A DNA stretch of 28,874 nt, taken from Deltaproteobacteria bacterium. GTDB taxonomy: Bacteria > DRYD01. The stretch lies in NCBI GenBank assembly GCA_028276365.1, contig JAPYWL010000012.1, forward strand, positions 1-28,874, read 5' to 3'. How positions within the stretch are numbered: the first letter of the stretch is position 1; each line of letters starts with the position of its first letter. This document shows, piece after piece, positions 3,230-22,229 of the stretch. Both the position numbers and the translations under genes were made by a program. A model generated the notes under the pieces. It searched no databases, was not told where the DNA came from, and saw only the letters and a list, made by a program, of their open reading frames with translations.

Positions 3230-4912
3230 ATGGATTTAATAAAGGAAACAATTATAAATGCTCCAAATCTACCAGGGGTTTATTTTTTTCTTGATAATAA
3301 GAATAATATAATCTATATAGGTAAAGCTAAAAATTTAAAGCAAAGATTATTACAGCACTTAAATCAATCGAAAGACATCTTAAAAAATACATATAAAATA
3401 GAATATAAAGTATTAAATTCAGAATTAGAAGCCCTAATAACTGAAGCTATATTAATTTATAAACATAAACCGTTTTATAACATTAAATTTAAATACCAAA
3501 AACCTCTAAAGTATATAGTTTTAGTTAATAAAGATGGATATCCTTATTTTGATATTACATCTAATTTAAATCCAGATATATCCTTTTTTATTGGACCATA
3601 TCAATATATATATAATTTTGATTACCTAAAAAAAACCTTAGGTAATTTATTTGGAATAAGGCTTTGTAAATATGACTTTAAGAAATACAAGCCCAATTTA
3701 TGTATGTACTATTACTCTAGCTATTGTAGTGGAATTTGCCAAAATAAAATAAATCAACAAGAATATCTAAAAAATTTAGAATTAGCTATTAAATTTCTAA
3801 TTAAAGACAGAAATACAATTGAAAACTACATAAAAGAACTTTATAATCAGTTAGAAATACTTAAAGAAAACTTAGAATATGAAAAAGCTATTATTATAAG
3901 AAACAAAATAAGAACTTTAGAAAAGTATATTTCAAATTATTTAGAAGATACTGAAAAATATTATATATATTTTTCAGATTTCTTGGATAATTCTATTTTT
4001 ATTGCTGTTTCAAAAATATATTCTAATGAACTAACTAATATTTTAAAAAATACATTTATTTTTCAATTAGAAAATATAAAAGAATTACCCAAAGAGCAAA
4101 TACTTTTAAATACTATCTTAGAATATATTCCCAACACCAATACCCCTAAAGAAATAAAAACTAATTTTTATAATAATTCATTAAGTGAATTATCTGAATT
4201 TATAAAAAATGTAAATAATAATCAATTCAAAGATATTAGCCCTAATTTAATACTTAAATTAAGTAATATAAAATTAGTGTTAATAGATTATGAAAAAGAT
4301 AAGGAAATAATCGAATATTTAGAAAATTTAATAAAAAATACATACTTAAGAAACCAAAGATTTAATAAAGAAAATATAATAAAGAAGTTAGCAAGTATTT
4401 TAGAAGTAAAGTCAATAAATAGGATAGAATGCGTAGATGTAAGCCATTTTTATGGAGAAAATGTATATGGTGCTCTAATTGTATTTGAAAAAGATAGATT
4501 AAAAAAAGATAAGTATAGAATATTTAAGTTACATAATAAATTTGATGATATATCTAATATAAAGGAATTACTAACAAGAAGAATTAAATATCTAACTAAC
4601 TTTGAGAACTATAAAGATAAAAGTTTAAATTTATTTCCACAGGTTATACTAATAGATGGAGGTAAATCGCAATTAAAAGCTGCTTATGAAATCTTAAAAA
4701 ATTATCCTCAATTATTATCAATAAAATTAATATCAATAGTTAAGCCTGAAGATGAAATCTTATATTTAGATATATCAGATAAAAAAACTAAAATAATTAA
4801 ACTAGATTTAAAGGATATAGAGGTATGGAATTTTTTAAGGATGTTAAGAGATGAAGCTCATAATTACGCTAACGCTAAAAGAATTAAATACACAAAATTA
4901 TTTGCCTTATAA
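3230..4912 (+). CDS. uvrC: Excinuclease ABC subunit C, short C-terminus
   Basis: Endonuclease of nucleotide excision repair that makes both incisions with UvrB. Order of domains: GIY-YIG nuclease (about 12-90; GVY 16-18, YIG 29-31, Tyr29, Arg39, Glu72), a Cys cluster (Cys146, 158, 166, 170; spacing 12-8-4, the same as in E. coli UvrC, which has been reported to carry a [4Fe-4S] cluster), UVR helix pair for UvrB contact (about 199-234), and RNase H-like nuclease with Asp403 (VDVSH), Asp476 (IDGGKSQLKAA) and His544 (RDEAHN). The catalytic triads are complete. The protein stops 16 residues after His544 at 560, so the usual tandem helix-hairpin-helix DNA-binding end (about 60 residues) is missing; the DNA after the stop does not encode it in any frame. 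The ATG start has only a weak Shine-Dalgarno site. It is divergent from leuC across 185 bases. Confidence 0.93.
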   Translation: MDLIKETIINAPNLPGVYFFLDNKNNIIYIGKAKNLKQRLLQHLNQSKDILKNTYKIEYKVLNSELEALITEAILIYKHKPFYNIKFKYQKPLKYIVLVNKDGYPYFDITSNLNPDISFFIGPYQYIYNFDYLKKTLGNLFGIRLCKYDFKKYKPNLCMYYYSSYCSGICQNKINQQEYLKNLELAIKFLIKDRNTIENYIKELYNQLEILKENLEYEKAIIIRNKIRTLEKYISNYLEDTEKYYIYFSDFLDNSIFIAVSKIYSNELTNILKNTFIFQLENIKELPKEQILLNTILEYIPNTNTPKEIKTNFYNNSLSELSEFIKNVNNNQFKDISPNLILKLSNIKLVLIDYEKDKEIIEYLENLIKNTYLRNQRFNKENIIKKLASILEVKSINRIECVDVSHFYGENVYGALIVFEKDRLKKDKYRIFKLHNKFDDISNIKELLTRRIKYLTNFENYKDKSLNLFPQVILIDGGKSQLKAAYEILKNYPQLLSIKLISIVKPEDEILYLDISDKKTKIIKLDLKDIEVWNFLRMLRDEAHNYANAKRIKYTKLFAL

Positions 4913-13892: not shown

Positions 13893-14384
13893 TTAATTTA
13901 TATTTTTGAGTTTTTCAGAAGCAGTTTTGATTATTTTAGCATTTACGTTTTCATCTACTACATCTTTTAATACTCCCTTAGCTAATTCGGTTACGACATT
14001 GACATAGGTATCTTTAATTTCATTTAGAGCTTGCTTCTTAGCATATTCTATTTCTTTTATAGTTTTATTTTTAATTTCATTAGCTTTATTTTGAGCTTCT
14101 TCGATTATATAGTTTTTAATATTTTCAGCTTCTTTTACAGCTTCTGATAATATTTTTTCTCTTTCTTCATTTATTTTATTTAATTTTGATTCTAAATCTA
14201 CTCTTAGTTGTTCTATTTCTTTTCGTATTTCTTCAGCTTTAGCTAAATTTTCTTTTATAACATTTTGTCTTGCCTGAGTTATATCTTTAAATGGCTTATA
14301 AAACAGATAATAAGCTATAATCACAAAAAGAATAAAATTAACTATTTGAAGAATCAAAGTAGGAACATTTAAGAGATCACCCAT
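13893..14384 (-). CDS. atpF: F-type ATP synthase subunit b
   Basis: Peripheral stalk of the F1Fo ATP synthase. 163 residues, normal for bacterial b: one N-terminal membrane helix (about 6-28, TLILQIVNFILFVIIAYYLF), the KPFKDI turn, then a long charged helix (about 36-150) forming the right-handed coiled coil that reaches F1. ATG follows AGGGGG. It is the third gene of atpB-atpE-atpF. In most bacteria atpH-atpA-atpG-atpD-atpC would follow, but here a phosphohexomutase does, so F1 must be encoded elsewhere. Confidence 0.93.
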   Translation of the reverse strand: MGDLLNVPTLILQIVNFILFVIIAYYLFYKPFKDITQARQNVIKENLAKAEEIRKEIEQLRVDLESKLNKINEEREKILSEAVKEAENIKNYIIEEAQNKANEIKNKTIKEIEYAKKQALNEIKDTYVNVVTELAKGVLKDVVDENVNAKIIKTASEKLKNIN

Positions 14385-14433
14385 TTTAACCCCCTAACAT
14401 AGCTTTTATTAAATAATAAAAACAGCTTTAATT

Positions 14434-14781
14434 TTATTTTAATATAGCTAAAACAACAAATAATACATAAAGCACTTGAGCTTCAATTAAAGCAAAAGCA
14501 ACAAAGAACCAAACTAACATAGAACCTGTAGTTTGTGGATTTCTATATATACCTTCCAATAGTGCTCTACCTAAAACACCGATCCCTAAAGCTGCCCCAA
14601 ACGCAGCAATACCCAAACCTATAGTACCTAAAGATTTTTGACTTATATTTATATTATTTAATAAATTACCTACTTCTTCTCCTGCTCCTAAAGCCCTTAA
14701 ACTAAATATACTAATTAATAAACTAACTATAAATAAGATATATATTATTGTAAATAAGCTTTTTAACTTATTATTATTCAT
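14434..14781 (-). CDS. atpE: F-type ATP synthase subunit c with extra N-terminal helix
   Basis: Proteolipid of the membrane rotor ring. The usual two-helix hairpin occupies about 48-115: Gly-rich helix 1 (GLGIAAFGAALGIGVLGRAL), polar loop EGIYRNP (76-82) and helix 2 with ion-binding Glu100 (ALIEAQVLYVLF). In Na+-binding rings, helix 1 carries Gln and Glu is followed by Ser/Thr; here these positions read Ile (GIG) and Ala (EA), favouring proton coupling (inference). At 115 residues it is longer than the common 70-90: residues 1-34 form a further hydrophobic helix with a possible signal-peptide cleavage at ALGA-GEE. ATG follows AAAGGAGGG, so the long start is well supported. Confidence 0.93.
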   Translation of the reverse strand: MNNNKLKSLFTIIYILFIVSLLISIFSLRALGAGEEVGNLLNNINISQKSLGTIGLGIAAFGAALGIGVLGRALLEGIYRNPQTTGSMLVWFFVAFALIEAQVLYVLFVVLAILK

Positions 14782-14820: not shown

Positions 14821-14859
14821 TTTTTATTATTTAGTGTTTATTTTTTATTATTTAGTGTT
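14821..14859. repeat. Tandem 21-base duplication at the end of atpB
   Basis: TTTTTATTATTTAGTGTT occurs at 14821-14838 and again at 14842-14859, a 21-base period. The second copy covers the atpB stop codon (the complement of TTA at 14852-14854), so on the coding strand the sequence CACTAAATAATAAAAA is read twice between atpB and atpE. It looks like a simple local duplication. Confidence 0.85.
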
Positions 14860-15706
14860 CTTCGTGTTCATGTAGATATAAACCTAAATAAACTGCACTC
14901 AAGATCTCAAATATAGTAGCTTGTATAAATGCTGCTAATAAACCTATTAGCATTACAAATAAACTTAAAATATACAAAAATCCCTTTAAAAATATACTAT
15001 TTTCTTTTATTACCATATGAACTAACTGTTCAACCATTGTATGTTCAGAAAATATATTAGCAAATAACCTTACTGATAAAGACAAAGTTCTAGCAAAGAC
15101 ATCAAATATATTTAGTAATAAAAATAAAGGGAATAAAACAATAGCAAGTATAATTGTAAAAGCGGTTTTATTAGCAAGTATTGTAGGAATAGGGAATATA
15201 AAATGGTTTAACCAATTTTTTAATCCCGTTTCTTTTATTGCTAATACATTATATGCTATTATAGATATTAAAGTTAAAGCTAAAGTAGTGCTTAAGTCAC
15301 TTGTAGGTGGTACTATCATACTATAACCTGAAGATTTCCATATTGGAGGTATATATCCTAATAAATTAGAAAATAAAATAAAAATAAAAAATGAAACAAG
15401 TAAAGGCATATACCTACTAGCCACTCTTTTACCTAATATTGACTCATTTATATTATTAATAGCTTCAATCATTAATTCAAATATATTTTGAACACTTAAA
15501 GGTTTAGGAACAAGTATTTCAGTATTTAAGGGATAAAATTTCAGTTTATTAAGAGTGGAATATACAGAATTTCTATAAAGGATCCCAAATATAAAGATAA
15601 CAAACATAACAATATAAGTACTAACAATGGTATTAAGGTGGATTTCAAAGTTAGGGAACATAAGGTATTTTAGGAATGGAGAGCTTCCTTCAGCTGCTAA
15701 AAGCAT
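14852..15706 (-). CDS. atpB: F-type ATP synthase subunit a
   Basis: Membrane stator subunit that forms the two half-channels for ions next to the c ring. 284 residues with about six membrane helices. Conserved landmarks: SNLLGYIPP (113-121), PTSDLSTTLALTL (134-146), and SLSVRLFANIFSEH (209-222) with the essential stator Arg213; the last helices contain FIQATIFEILSAVYLGLYL. RLFANIFSEH replaces the more usual RLFGNIxxGH, a modest variation. The ATG at 15706 follows a strong AGGAGGG. It is first of the atpB-atpE-atpF trio; no atpI precedes it, only the IscA-like gene 66 bases upstream. Confidence 0.95.
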   Translation of the reverse strand: MLLAAEGSSPFLKYLMFPNFEIHLNTIVSTYIVMFVIFIFGILYRNSVYSTLNKLKFYPLNTEILVPKPLSVQNIFELMIEAINNINESILGKRVASRYMPLLVSFFIFILFSNLLGYIPPIWKSSGYSMIVPPTSDLSTTLALTLISIIAYNVLAIKETGLKNWLNHFIFPIPTILANKTAFTIILAIVLFPLFLLLNIFDVFARTLSLSVRLFANIFSEHTMVEQLVHMVIKENSIFLKGFLYILSLFVMLIGLLAAFIQATIFEILSAVYLGLYLHEHEEH

Positions 15707-15772
15707 TTTTCCCTCCTGCTTTTCTAATACTTTTTTTATTTTTTTATTTTTTAATATTTTTAATTAGTATTT

Positions 15773-16192
15773 TTAATTATTACAAGCACAAGATCCTCCG
15801 CAATTACATTCCTTTTCATTTCCACATCCACATTTTTCTTCGTCTTCACATCCATATTCTTCTTCTTTAGTACAACCACATTGCCCATTTCCACAGCCAC
15901 AACCTTTATTTATATTAGAATTAATAATAAAATACCCCATCCCTTCACTTTCAACAAAATCTATTTCTGCATTTTCTACAAATGGATAACTAAAATCATC
16001 TACTACTACTTTCAAACCATTAATATCTATAAAATTATCGGAGCTGTCAAATTCATTTGTAATTTCAAAACCAAAATCTATACCACAACACCCACTAGCT
16101 ATTACAAAAACCCTTAAAGCTAAATTAGGTTCATTTTCATTTGCTATTAATTCTTTTGCTTTATTTAAAGCTTTTTCTGTTAAATTTAGCAT
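15773..16192 (-). CDS. IscA/HesB-family iron-sulfur protein with Cys-rich C-terminal tail
   Basis: A-type iron-sulfur carrier-like protein, 139 residues. Residues 1-100 are the HesB/IscA fold: LTEKALNKAKELI, LRVFVIASGCCGIDFGFEI with Cys35 (and an added Cys36), VVVDDFSYPFVENAEIDFVE, and the canonical C-terminal pair Cys98-Gly-Cys100. Normal family members end there at about 105-110. Here a further tail of about 39 residues carries nine more cysteines (105, 107, 115, 121, 123, 129, 131, 135, 137), mostly as CxC, among Glu/Gly/Asn. The tail looks like metallothionein or a metal-storage peptide. ATG follows AGAGGT. It is the first gene of the minus-strand run before atpB and shares a 206-base divergent region with the glycosyltransferase. 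Confidence 0.85.
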   Translation of the reverse strand: MLNLTEKALNKAKELIANENEPNLALRVFVIASGCCGIDFGFEITNEFDSSDNFIDINGLKVVVDDFSYPFVENAEIDFVESEGMGYFIINSNINKGCGCGNGQCGCTKEEEYGCEDEEKCGCGNEKECNCGGSCACNN

Positions 16193-20711: not shown

Positions 20712-20744
20712 TAAAATTAAAATAACATAAGGAGAATGAAATAT

Positions 20745-21740
20745 ATGAATGTGTTAATACCTTCTTTATATCCAAGGAGCGAAGAATTAATTAAAAAAAC
20801 TAGAGATTTTGATAGGAATAGACTAAATGAACAAGAATTAGAAAAATATTTTTATAAAGATTTCATAGATTTCATTAATTTACAAAATGAATTGAGTTTA
20901 AAATATTATAATCCTGGTTTGTTTAAATTTAAGGATTTATTAAGACCTTTTACTTTAGTTTTAAAAAATTCAATTGCTAACACTTTGATTAGATTTGAAG
21001 AAACAAATACTTTTTGGAGAAAACTTGAAATCTCTGATTTTGATTTAAATTATAATAATTTTGAAATTATCTTTAAAGACTATCTTTATTTAGATTATTT
21101 CAATAAAACTAATGAAAATCTAATTAATAAGAAAATACTAATAACTTTGCCTTCTGTTTTTACTTTTTATAAATATTCTAATTTAACTTTTGAGCAAATT
21201 AACTTTTTACTTTTAGAGTTTTGTAAAAATTTAAATAGTTACTTAGTTAATACTAAATTATCAAAAGAAAATATTTCTATTGTTTTGGTAGAGTATCTTG
21301 ATTTTTTATATTCTAAGGATTTTGAATTATTTAAACAAAATTTTGAGTATTTAAAAAAATTGCTAAATGAATTAAATAAAGAATATTTAGAATTGTTTTA
21401 TTTTACTTATTCTAATTTAAATAAGGTTTATTTAGATATTTTTTCTTTAGAAGTTAAAGGTATTTCTATTAATTTTTATAGAAATAATCTAAAGGATATT
21501 GATTTTAGTAAGCTAAGTAAATATCTGTTAGCTGGAGTTATTTCTACTGAATCTTCTTTATTAGAAAATGAAGAAAAGATTAATAATTTTTTAAATAACA
21601 TTTCTAATTATTTTGATTTAAATAAAATGATATTTACAATTGATTTTATTCCTTATTTATTGCCAAGGAGTATTATGGATTATAAATTAAAAAATATGAT
21701 AGATATCTTAAATAAACAGGAATTAATAAAAACTAATTAA
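20745..21740 (+). CDS. MetE/UROD-superfamily-like protein lacking zinc ligands
   Basis: 331 residues. It follows the layout of the short 'core' MetE (cobalamin-independent methionine synthase, C-terminal-domain type): YPRSEELIKKTRDFDRNRLN opening, TLPSVFTFYK where GPxT usually lies, ISIVLVEYLDF where IQIDEPAL lies, and AGVISTESSLLENEEKINNF then IDFIPYLLPR and KLKNMIDIL for the end. The zinc ligands of MetE (HxC, E, C) align with Phe220, Tyr222, Asn243 and Phe301, so all four appear lost. This alignment is from memory of the family. Methionine synthesis is therefore unlikely; it may be a pseudo-enzyme or bind another ligand. ATG 20745 was chosen because AAGGAG lies 10 bases upstream; ATG 20736 is too close to it. 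Confidence 0.65.
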   Translation: MNVLIPSLYPRSEELIKKTRDFDRNRLNEQELEKYFYKDFIDFINLQNELSLKYYNPGLFKFKDLLRPFTLVLKNSIANTLIRFEETNTFWRKLEISDFDLNYNNFEIIFKDYLYLDYFNKTNENLINKKILITLPSVFTFYKYSNLTFEQINFLLLEFCKNLNSYLVNTKLSKENISIVLVEYLDFLYSKDFELFKQNFEYLKKLLNELNKEYLELFYFTYSNLNKVYLDIFSLEVKGISINFYRNNLKDIDFSKLSKYLLAGVISTESSLLENEEKINNFLNNISNYFDLNKMIFTIDFIPYLLPRSIMDYKLKNMIDILNKQELIKTN

Positions 21741-21752
21741 AAATAAAAATCT

Positions 21753-22229
21753 ATGGAATTAAATAATTTAGGTAATTTATATAATGATATTTTGATTGAG
21801 CATTATCAAAGACCATTTAATAAAAAAGTTTTAGAGAATTATAATTTTGATCAAGAAGGGATTAATCCTTCTTGTGGGGATGAATTACATTTATTTTTAA
21901 AAATAGGTGATAATAAGATAAAAGAGTTATCTTTTGAAGGGAAAGGATGTTCTGTTTCTATTGCTTCCGCTTCTATTATGTCTTATATAATTTCCATCTT
22001 AAAAGAATATTCGCTAAATGATATTAAAAAAATAGTTGATAAAATTATTGAGTATATAAAAGGTGAAATAAGTTATGAAGATATTTTCAAAAATGAATTA
22101 AATCATTTAAAAAATGAGTTTCAAGATTTACTAGCTTTAAAAGATATAAATAAGATTCCAGTAAGATTAAAGTGTGCTTTACTTAGTTGGATAACTTTAA
22201 AAGAATTCCTAAATAATTACAATTCTTAA
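21753..22229 (+). CDS. sufU: SufU-type iron-sulfur assembly / sulfur-transfer protein
   Basis: Zinc-containing sulfur acceptor for the cysteine desulfurase SufS in the SUF system of Gram-positive-type bacteria, or an IscU-like scaffold. 158 residues. LYNDILIEHYQRPFNKKVL (9-27), then the ligands Cys41 and Asp43 (NPSCGDEL), Cys66 (EGKGCSVSIASASIM) and Cys141 (VRLKCALLSW). The insertion between Cys66 and Cys141 and the RxKCAxLSW end are the SufU features that IscU lacks. It begins 12 bases after the MetE-like gene with no clear Shine-Dalgarno site. No sufB, sufC, sufD or sufS is nearby, although in most genomes sufU lies among them. Confidence 0.92.
   Translation: MELNNLGNLYNDILIEHYQRPFNKKVLENYNFDQEGINPSCGDELHLFLKIGDNKIKELSFEGKGCSVSIASASIMSYIISILKEYSLNDIKKIVDKIIEYIKGEISYEDIFKNELNHLKNEFQDLLALKDINKIPVRLKCALLSWITLKEFLNNYNS

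Follow-up and report, generated by a model that had tools for sequence, protein, structure and literature searches.

The window analysed here, a stretch of 28,874 nucleotides, carries at 15773-16192 (-) a gene that starts with ATG and encodes a 139-residue A-type (HesB/IscA/ErpA-like) Fe-S carrier with a cysteine-rich C-terminal tail. The protein matched Pfam Fe-S_biosyn (PF01521) over residues 2-102 (E 7.5e-13; 49.1 bits against a cut-off of 26.3) and scored 80.5 bits against TIGR00049, above the cut-off of 58.8. All three conserved A-type cysteines are kept: C35, the first canonical ligand, which together with C36 occupies 16085..16090 (-) within an SGCCG motif, and C98 and C100, the canonical CxC ligands recognized from the translation and Pfam in C98-G-C100 (15893..15901, -). 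The A-type core, delimited by Pfam, AlphaFold2 and Foldseek, comprises residues 1-100 (15893..16192, -). AlphaFold2 returned a pLDDT of ~90 across most of residues 1-93, and a Foldseek search with the predicted core gave IscA, HI1723, SufA and AQ_1857 as the top matches, with E. coli IscA (1r94) sharing the fold at E 1.5e-8. Taken together, sequence and model indicate that the product is a member of the A-type Fe-S carrier family with the IscA/SufA fold, as the initial annotation had recognized in describing an IscA-type core that ends in a normal CGC. The NCBIfam equivalog cut-offs were missed for ErpA (86.3 against 117, the best-scoring equivalog model), SufA (56.3 against 136.2) and IscA (54.9 against 150.6). 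Standard ErpA, IscA and SufA proteins (PF01521, TIGR00049; 1r94/1s98, Aquifex AQ_1857 1nwb, Haemophilus HI1723 2apn) have the same three ligand cysteines. However, they stop 6-8 residues past CGC (e.g. CGCGSSFSV) without further cysteine, whereas the protein studied here continues for 39 residues with nine cysteines. The first-ligand motif differs as well, SGCCG replacing GGCSG, with C36 standing where A-type proteins usually have Ser/Ala.

The tail (residues 101-139; 15776..15892, -) was characterized by translation, codon comparison and composition. Its cysteines form the CxC pairs 105/107, 121/123 (15824..15832, -), 129/131 and the terminal 135/137 (15782..15790, -), plus the single C115; the count and positions first described, nine cysteines mostly as CxC in about 39 residues of the product of 15773-16192, were right. 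Cysteine makes up 23% of the tail, compared with 0.57% of the 25 other window genes, and the binomial chance of at least nine cysteines in 39 residues is ~1e-12. Residues 94-139 have a pLDDT below 50 and are predicted to be disordered. Tandem Repeats Finder detected no array within the coding part of the tail, the arrays sitting in an AT-rich spacer that ends at 15782. Dense CxC content and predicted disorder are also features of bacterial metallothioneins, and the earlier description of the tail as metallothionein-like is fair for its composition. It does not extend to family membership, which we rejected: searching Pfam and PDB with the tail yielded nothing at E values up to 10, although short low-complexity tails are difficult to match by homology, and the tail, unlike metallothioneins, is joined to an Fe-S carrier domain.

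A search for homologues with the same tail identified a congener, G001 (CAKZQG010000005.1), which was independently assembled and encodes an 88% identical protein with the same tail in frame. The two tails align with one four-codon gap, corresponding to an indel at residues 114-117. From C98 on, 10 of the 11 cysteines are shared with G001 and C115 falls in the gap; all ten shared cysteine codons are kept, four of them with TGT/TGC switches. The five CxC pairs are intact, even though the middle residue has changed in two of them (G106E and N130G). Among the 39 tail codons compared, 11 differ synonymously only and 6 non-synonymously; the corresponding numbers for the 96 core codons are 28 and 10. 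By this codon comparison, the tail is under purifying selection in both congeners. Four further species, from another genus of the same family, carry shorter cysteine-rich tails, e.g. GCGCGCGCSDKEEHSCSCGNGSCGCH and ENSCNCNCNCGCDCK, so that a cysteine-rich tail is conserved across two genera and six species, with a length of ~10 to 40 residues. A sequencing or frameshift artefact, which the initial annotation had raised together with absence of the tail from close relatives, was rejected and has a negligible probability, given the in-frame tail and synonymous differences in the independent G001 assembly and the related tails in four more species. The first-ligand motif is SGCCG or AGCCG in all six family genomes, continuing as CCGI or CCGL without proline. 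One of the four relatives from the other genus is labelled Candidatus Calescibacterium, and the window accordingly belongs within or close to the thermophilic Calescamantes/Calescibacterota, a lineage described from springs near 80 °C (PMC4791363).

To set the tail against other A-type proteins, we surveyed 136 A-type ORFs with CxC from 386 genomes. No extra cysteine past CxC was present in 105, one in 14, two in 5, and three or more in 12; among the 136, eight or nine were found only in the two members of the window genus. The initial statement that no standard IscA is known with such a tail was too strong: within this sample it holds for the number of cysteines, but shorter cysteine-rich tails recur in unrelated A-type proteins. 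Outside the family, three or more extra cysteines occur in L008, L041, L047, L057, L088 and L141, which, like the window protein, have an extra CxC or CC past the canonical CGC. Their first-ligand motif is GGCSG or SGCSG, and their three to five extra cysteines lie in Gly/Ser-rich sequence, whereas the window tail is Glu/Lys-rich. These six proteins fall mostly on separate branches of the tree, and short Cys/Gly tails have apparently arisen several times in A-type proteins, in a tree that is poorly resolved and has too few columns to resolve the origin of the tail; parsimony gave 4-11 changes depending on the threshold. Literature searches found no published IscA with a cysteine-rich tail.

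HesB-like (seleno)proteins (TIGR01911, NF038090) contain a related domain, whose first site is occupied by Sec or Cys in those examined, and often have a Cys/Gly-rich C-terminus, e.g. L174 (...GGGGSCGSGGCGSGDSGGGCGSGGCGCS); such a C-terminus was often present in the HesB-like selenoproteins, and one Cys paralogue, among the NF038090 matches. These proteins have a UxGP/CxGP motif (PMC13188914). In contrast, the window protein contains no Sec and keeps the canonical CGC, and neither it nor its five relatives has UxGP or CxGP, the proline being absent. Membership was rejected on this ground and on scores below the cut-offs of TIGR01911 (15.6 against 66.35) and NF038090 (IscA_HesB_Se; 41.8 against 85). 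On its sequence, the window protein appears to resemble the HesB-like families without being a member.

Each of the six family genomes has one PF01521 gene, and no second A-type paralogue, tailed or untailed, was found in them; all are MAGs of 71-90% completeness, and a second carrier could be absent from any one. No A-type match to the query was obtained in G006, a genome of the same order (73% complete). Five of the six family genomes encode SufB and SufD, and sufC, sufB and sufD are adjacent in G000. The sulfur-transfer protein of the SUF pathway, SufU, is encoded in the window at 21753..22229 (+) (TIGR01994, 120.5 bits; cut-off 92.5), in agreement with the SufU-type assembly originally noted. 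The Nfu domain (PF01106) was not found in G000, G001, G002 or G006, which leaves no obvious backup carrier. With one PF01521 gene per genome, SUF genes and no Nfu domain in the four genomes searched, the A-type gene is probably the main late Fe-S carrier, the incompleteness of the MAGs being a caveat. No other tail-like protein besides the A-type gene product itself was found in G000, G001, G002 and G005. Directly upstream of sufU, 20736-21740 (+) encodes a diverged 334-residue relative of MetE-like methionine synthase with no Pfam hit and a weak NCBIfam match. The window also encodes a diverged UvrC of 560 residues at 3230-4912 (+), which scored 252.9 bits against the TIGR00194 cut-off of 285.45 and in which no helix-hairpin-helix domain was found at the C-terminus.

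The genes conserved beside the A-type gene are those of ATP synthase. The next gene downstream, atpB (F0 subunit a; 14852..15706, -), is linked to it in both genera, the A-type gene lying directly upstream of atpB in all six family genomes (14852-16192 (-) in the window; L031, L032, L033, L034 and L035). The genes atpE and atpF (F0 subunits c and b; 13893..14781, -) come after atpB wherever the contig extends; the L033 contig holds the start of atpB only. In G004 the A-type gene and atpB are separated by 2 bp, suggesting that they are co-transcribed there. This linkage of Fe-S and ATP synthase genes was seen in the family but not at the other A-type loci examined, in whose flanks (450-1500 bp) no atpB match was detected. 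LeuC and UvrC, previously proposed as nearby cluster clients, lie 11-13 kb away, too far to count as functional neighbours, and provide no functional link. At the congener locus L031, 485-1738 (-) encodes a protein with a pilin-like N-terminus (GFSLLEVVAF...) and, near the C-terminus, a Hint-like module (PF01079, E 7.7e-7, just below its cut-off).

We tentatively favor the view that the protein is a general A-type Fe-S carrier working with SufBCD and SufU, and that its disordered tail is a polythiol arm that buffers or guards metals beside the cluster site. The CxC pairs would bind soft metals (Zn, Cu, perhaps Fe) next to this site, and the arm, as a local buffer, would keep the single carrier from filling with the wrong metal; it may also hand iron to the carrier site. 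E. coli IscA binds Zn ~1:1 via Cys35/99/101, Cu also binds, and both metals inhibit the assembly of clusters; the crystal structure does not show Cys99/101, probably owing to their flexibility (PMC6495748). Metal binding by the tail is inferred. Against a buffering or guarding role, there is no metallothionein homology in Pfam or PDB, no metal-resistance gene adjoins the A-type gene, a tail in this position could just as well take part in cluster transfer, and a second carrier may have been missed in the incomplete MAGs. It is possible, though doubtful, that in a thermophilic lineage a metallothionein-like metal reservoir and the single A-type carrier have merged into one protein that would both store or guard metal and insert clusters.

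Chelation has a close rival: the tail could provide another iron or Fe-S site, at which its thiolates, together with C98 and C100, would carry a further or bigger cluster, or pass clusters on to clients, giving a higher-capacity carrier. The tail begins directly past the cluster-binding CGC of the only A-type carrier found in the family genomes, and pairs 121/123 and 135/137 can be aligned across the six species, which would suffice for a site with four thiolates, although how the short tails align is uncertain. However, known Fe-S sites have fixed spacing, whereas the number and spacing of the pairs differ strongly among species, as in the G004 tail (CNCNCNCGCDCK), and the tail has no predicted structure. 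Retention of CxC pairs while their spacing, number and middle residues vary is more readily explained by generic chelation than by a single defined additional cluster, and we regard the second site as rather unlikely.

Two further readings are less likely. The Cys-Cys of SGCCG and the tail could make a thiol redox protein like the HesB-like selenoproteins instead of a cluster carrier. Each of the 11 sampled proteins in which the first ligand is part of CC ends in a cysteine-rich C-terminus (3-11 Cys), and CC is associated with five or more cysteines (7/11 against 7/130; Fisher p 5e-6, which is no formal test as the sequences are related). In the tree, these 11 proteins form a loose cluster (90%), the AU test does not reject a single clade (p 0.78), Sec occupies the same first site in HesB-like proteins, and most uncharacterized selenoproteins are suspected redox proteins (PMC13188914). 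The scores below both HesB-like cut-offs, the missing proline and the retention of all three A-type ligands argue against this, and a carrier role is expected of the only A-type gene found; we consider thiol redox improbable. Near-neutral drift at a tolerant C-terminus would accord with the range of tail lengths and with the several apparent gains of Cys/Gly-rich tails of varied length, but the congeners keep every shared cysteine, synonymous changes outnumber non-synonymous ones in the tail, and its cysteine content stands far above that of the surrounding region, which makes drift equally hard to credit.

It has long been asked whether the cargo of A-type proteins is iron, clusters or both. 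A ready series for testing how extra thiols at the cluster site affect metal selectivity and cluster transfer is offered by a sole carrier whose thiol tail is natural and detachable, together with natural homologues that have 3 to 9 additional cysteines. IscA itself has been proposed as an iron chaperone (PMC6495748). The cysteine-rich C-terminal tail recurs among A-type proteins as an architecture that has been little described; several lineages have it in shorter form, whereas eight or nine extra cysteines are confined to the window genus among the 136 sampled. Other arrangements were also seen: L148 and L132 are A-type proteins with GCCSG, in which the extra cysteine precedes the first ligand instead of following it, and have short cysteine-rich ends. 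At L174, two HesB-like genes are adjacent and both encode Cys/Gly-rich tails; at the first ligand, one has an in-frame TGA (probable Sec) and the other Cys-Cys.
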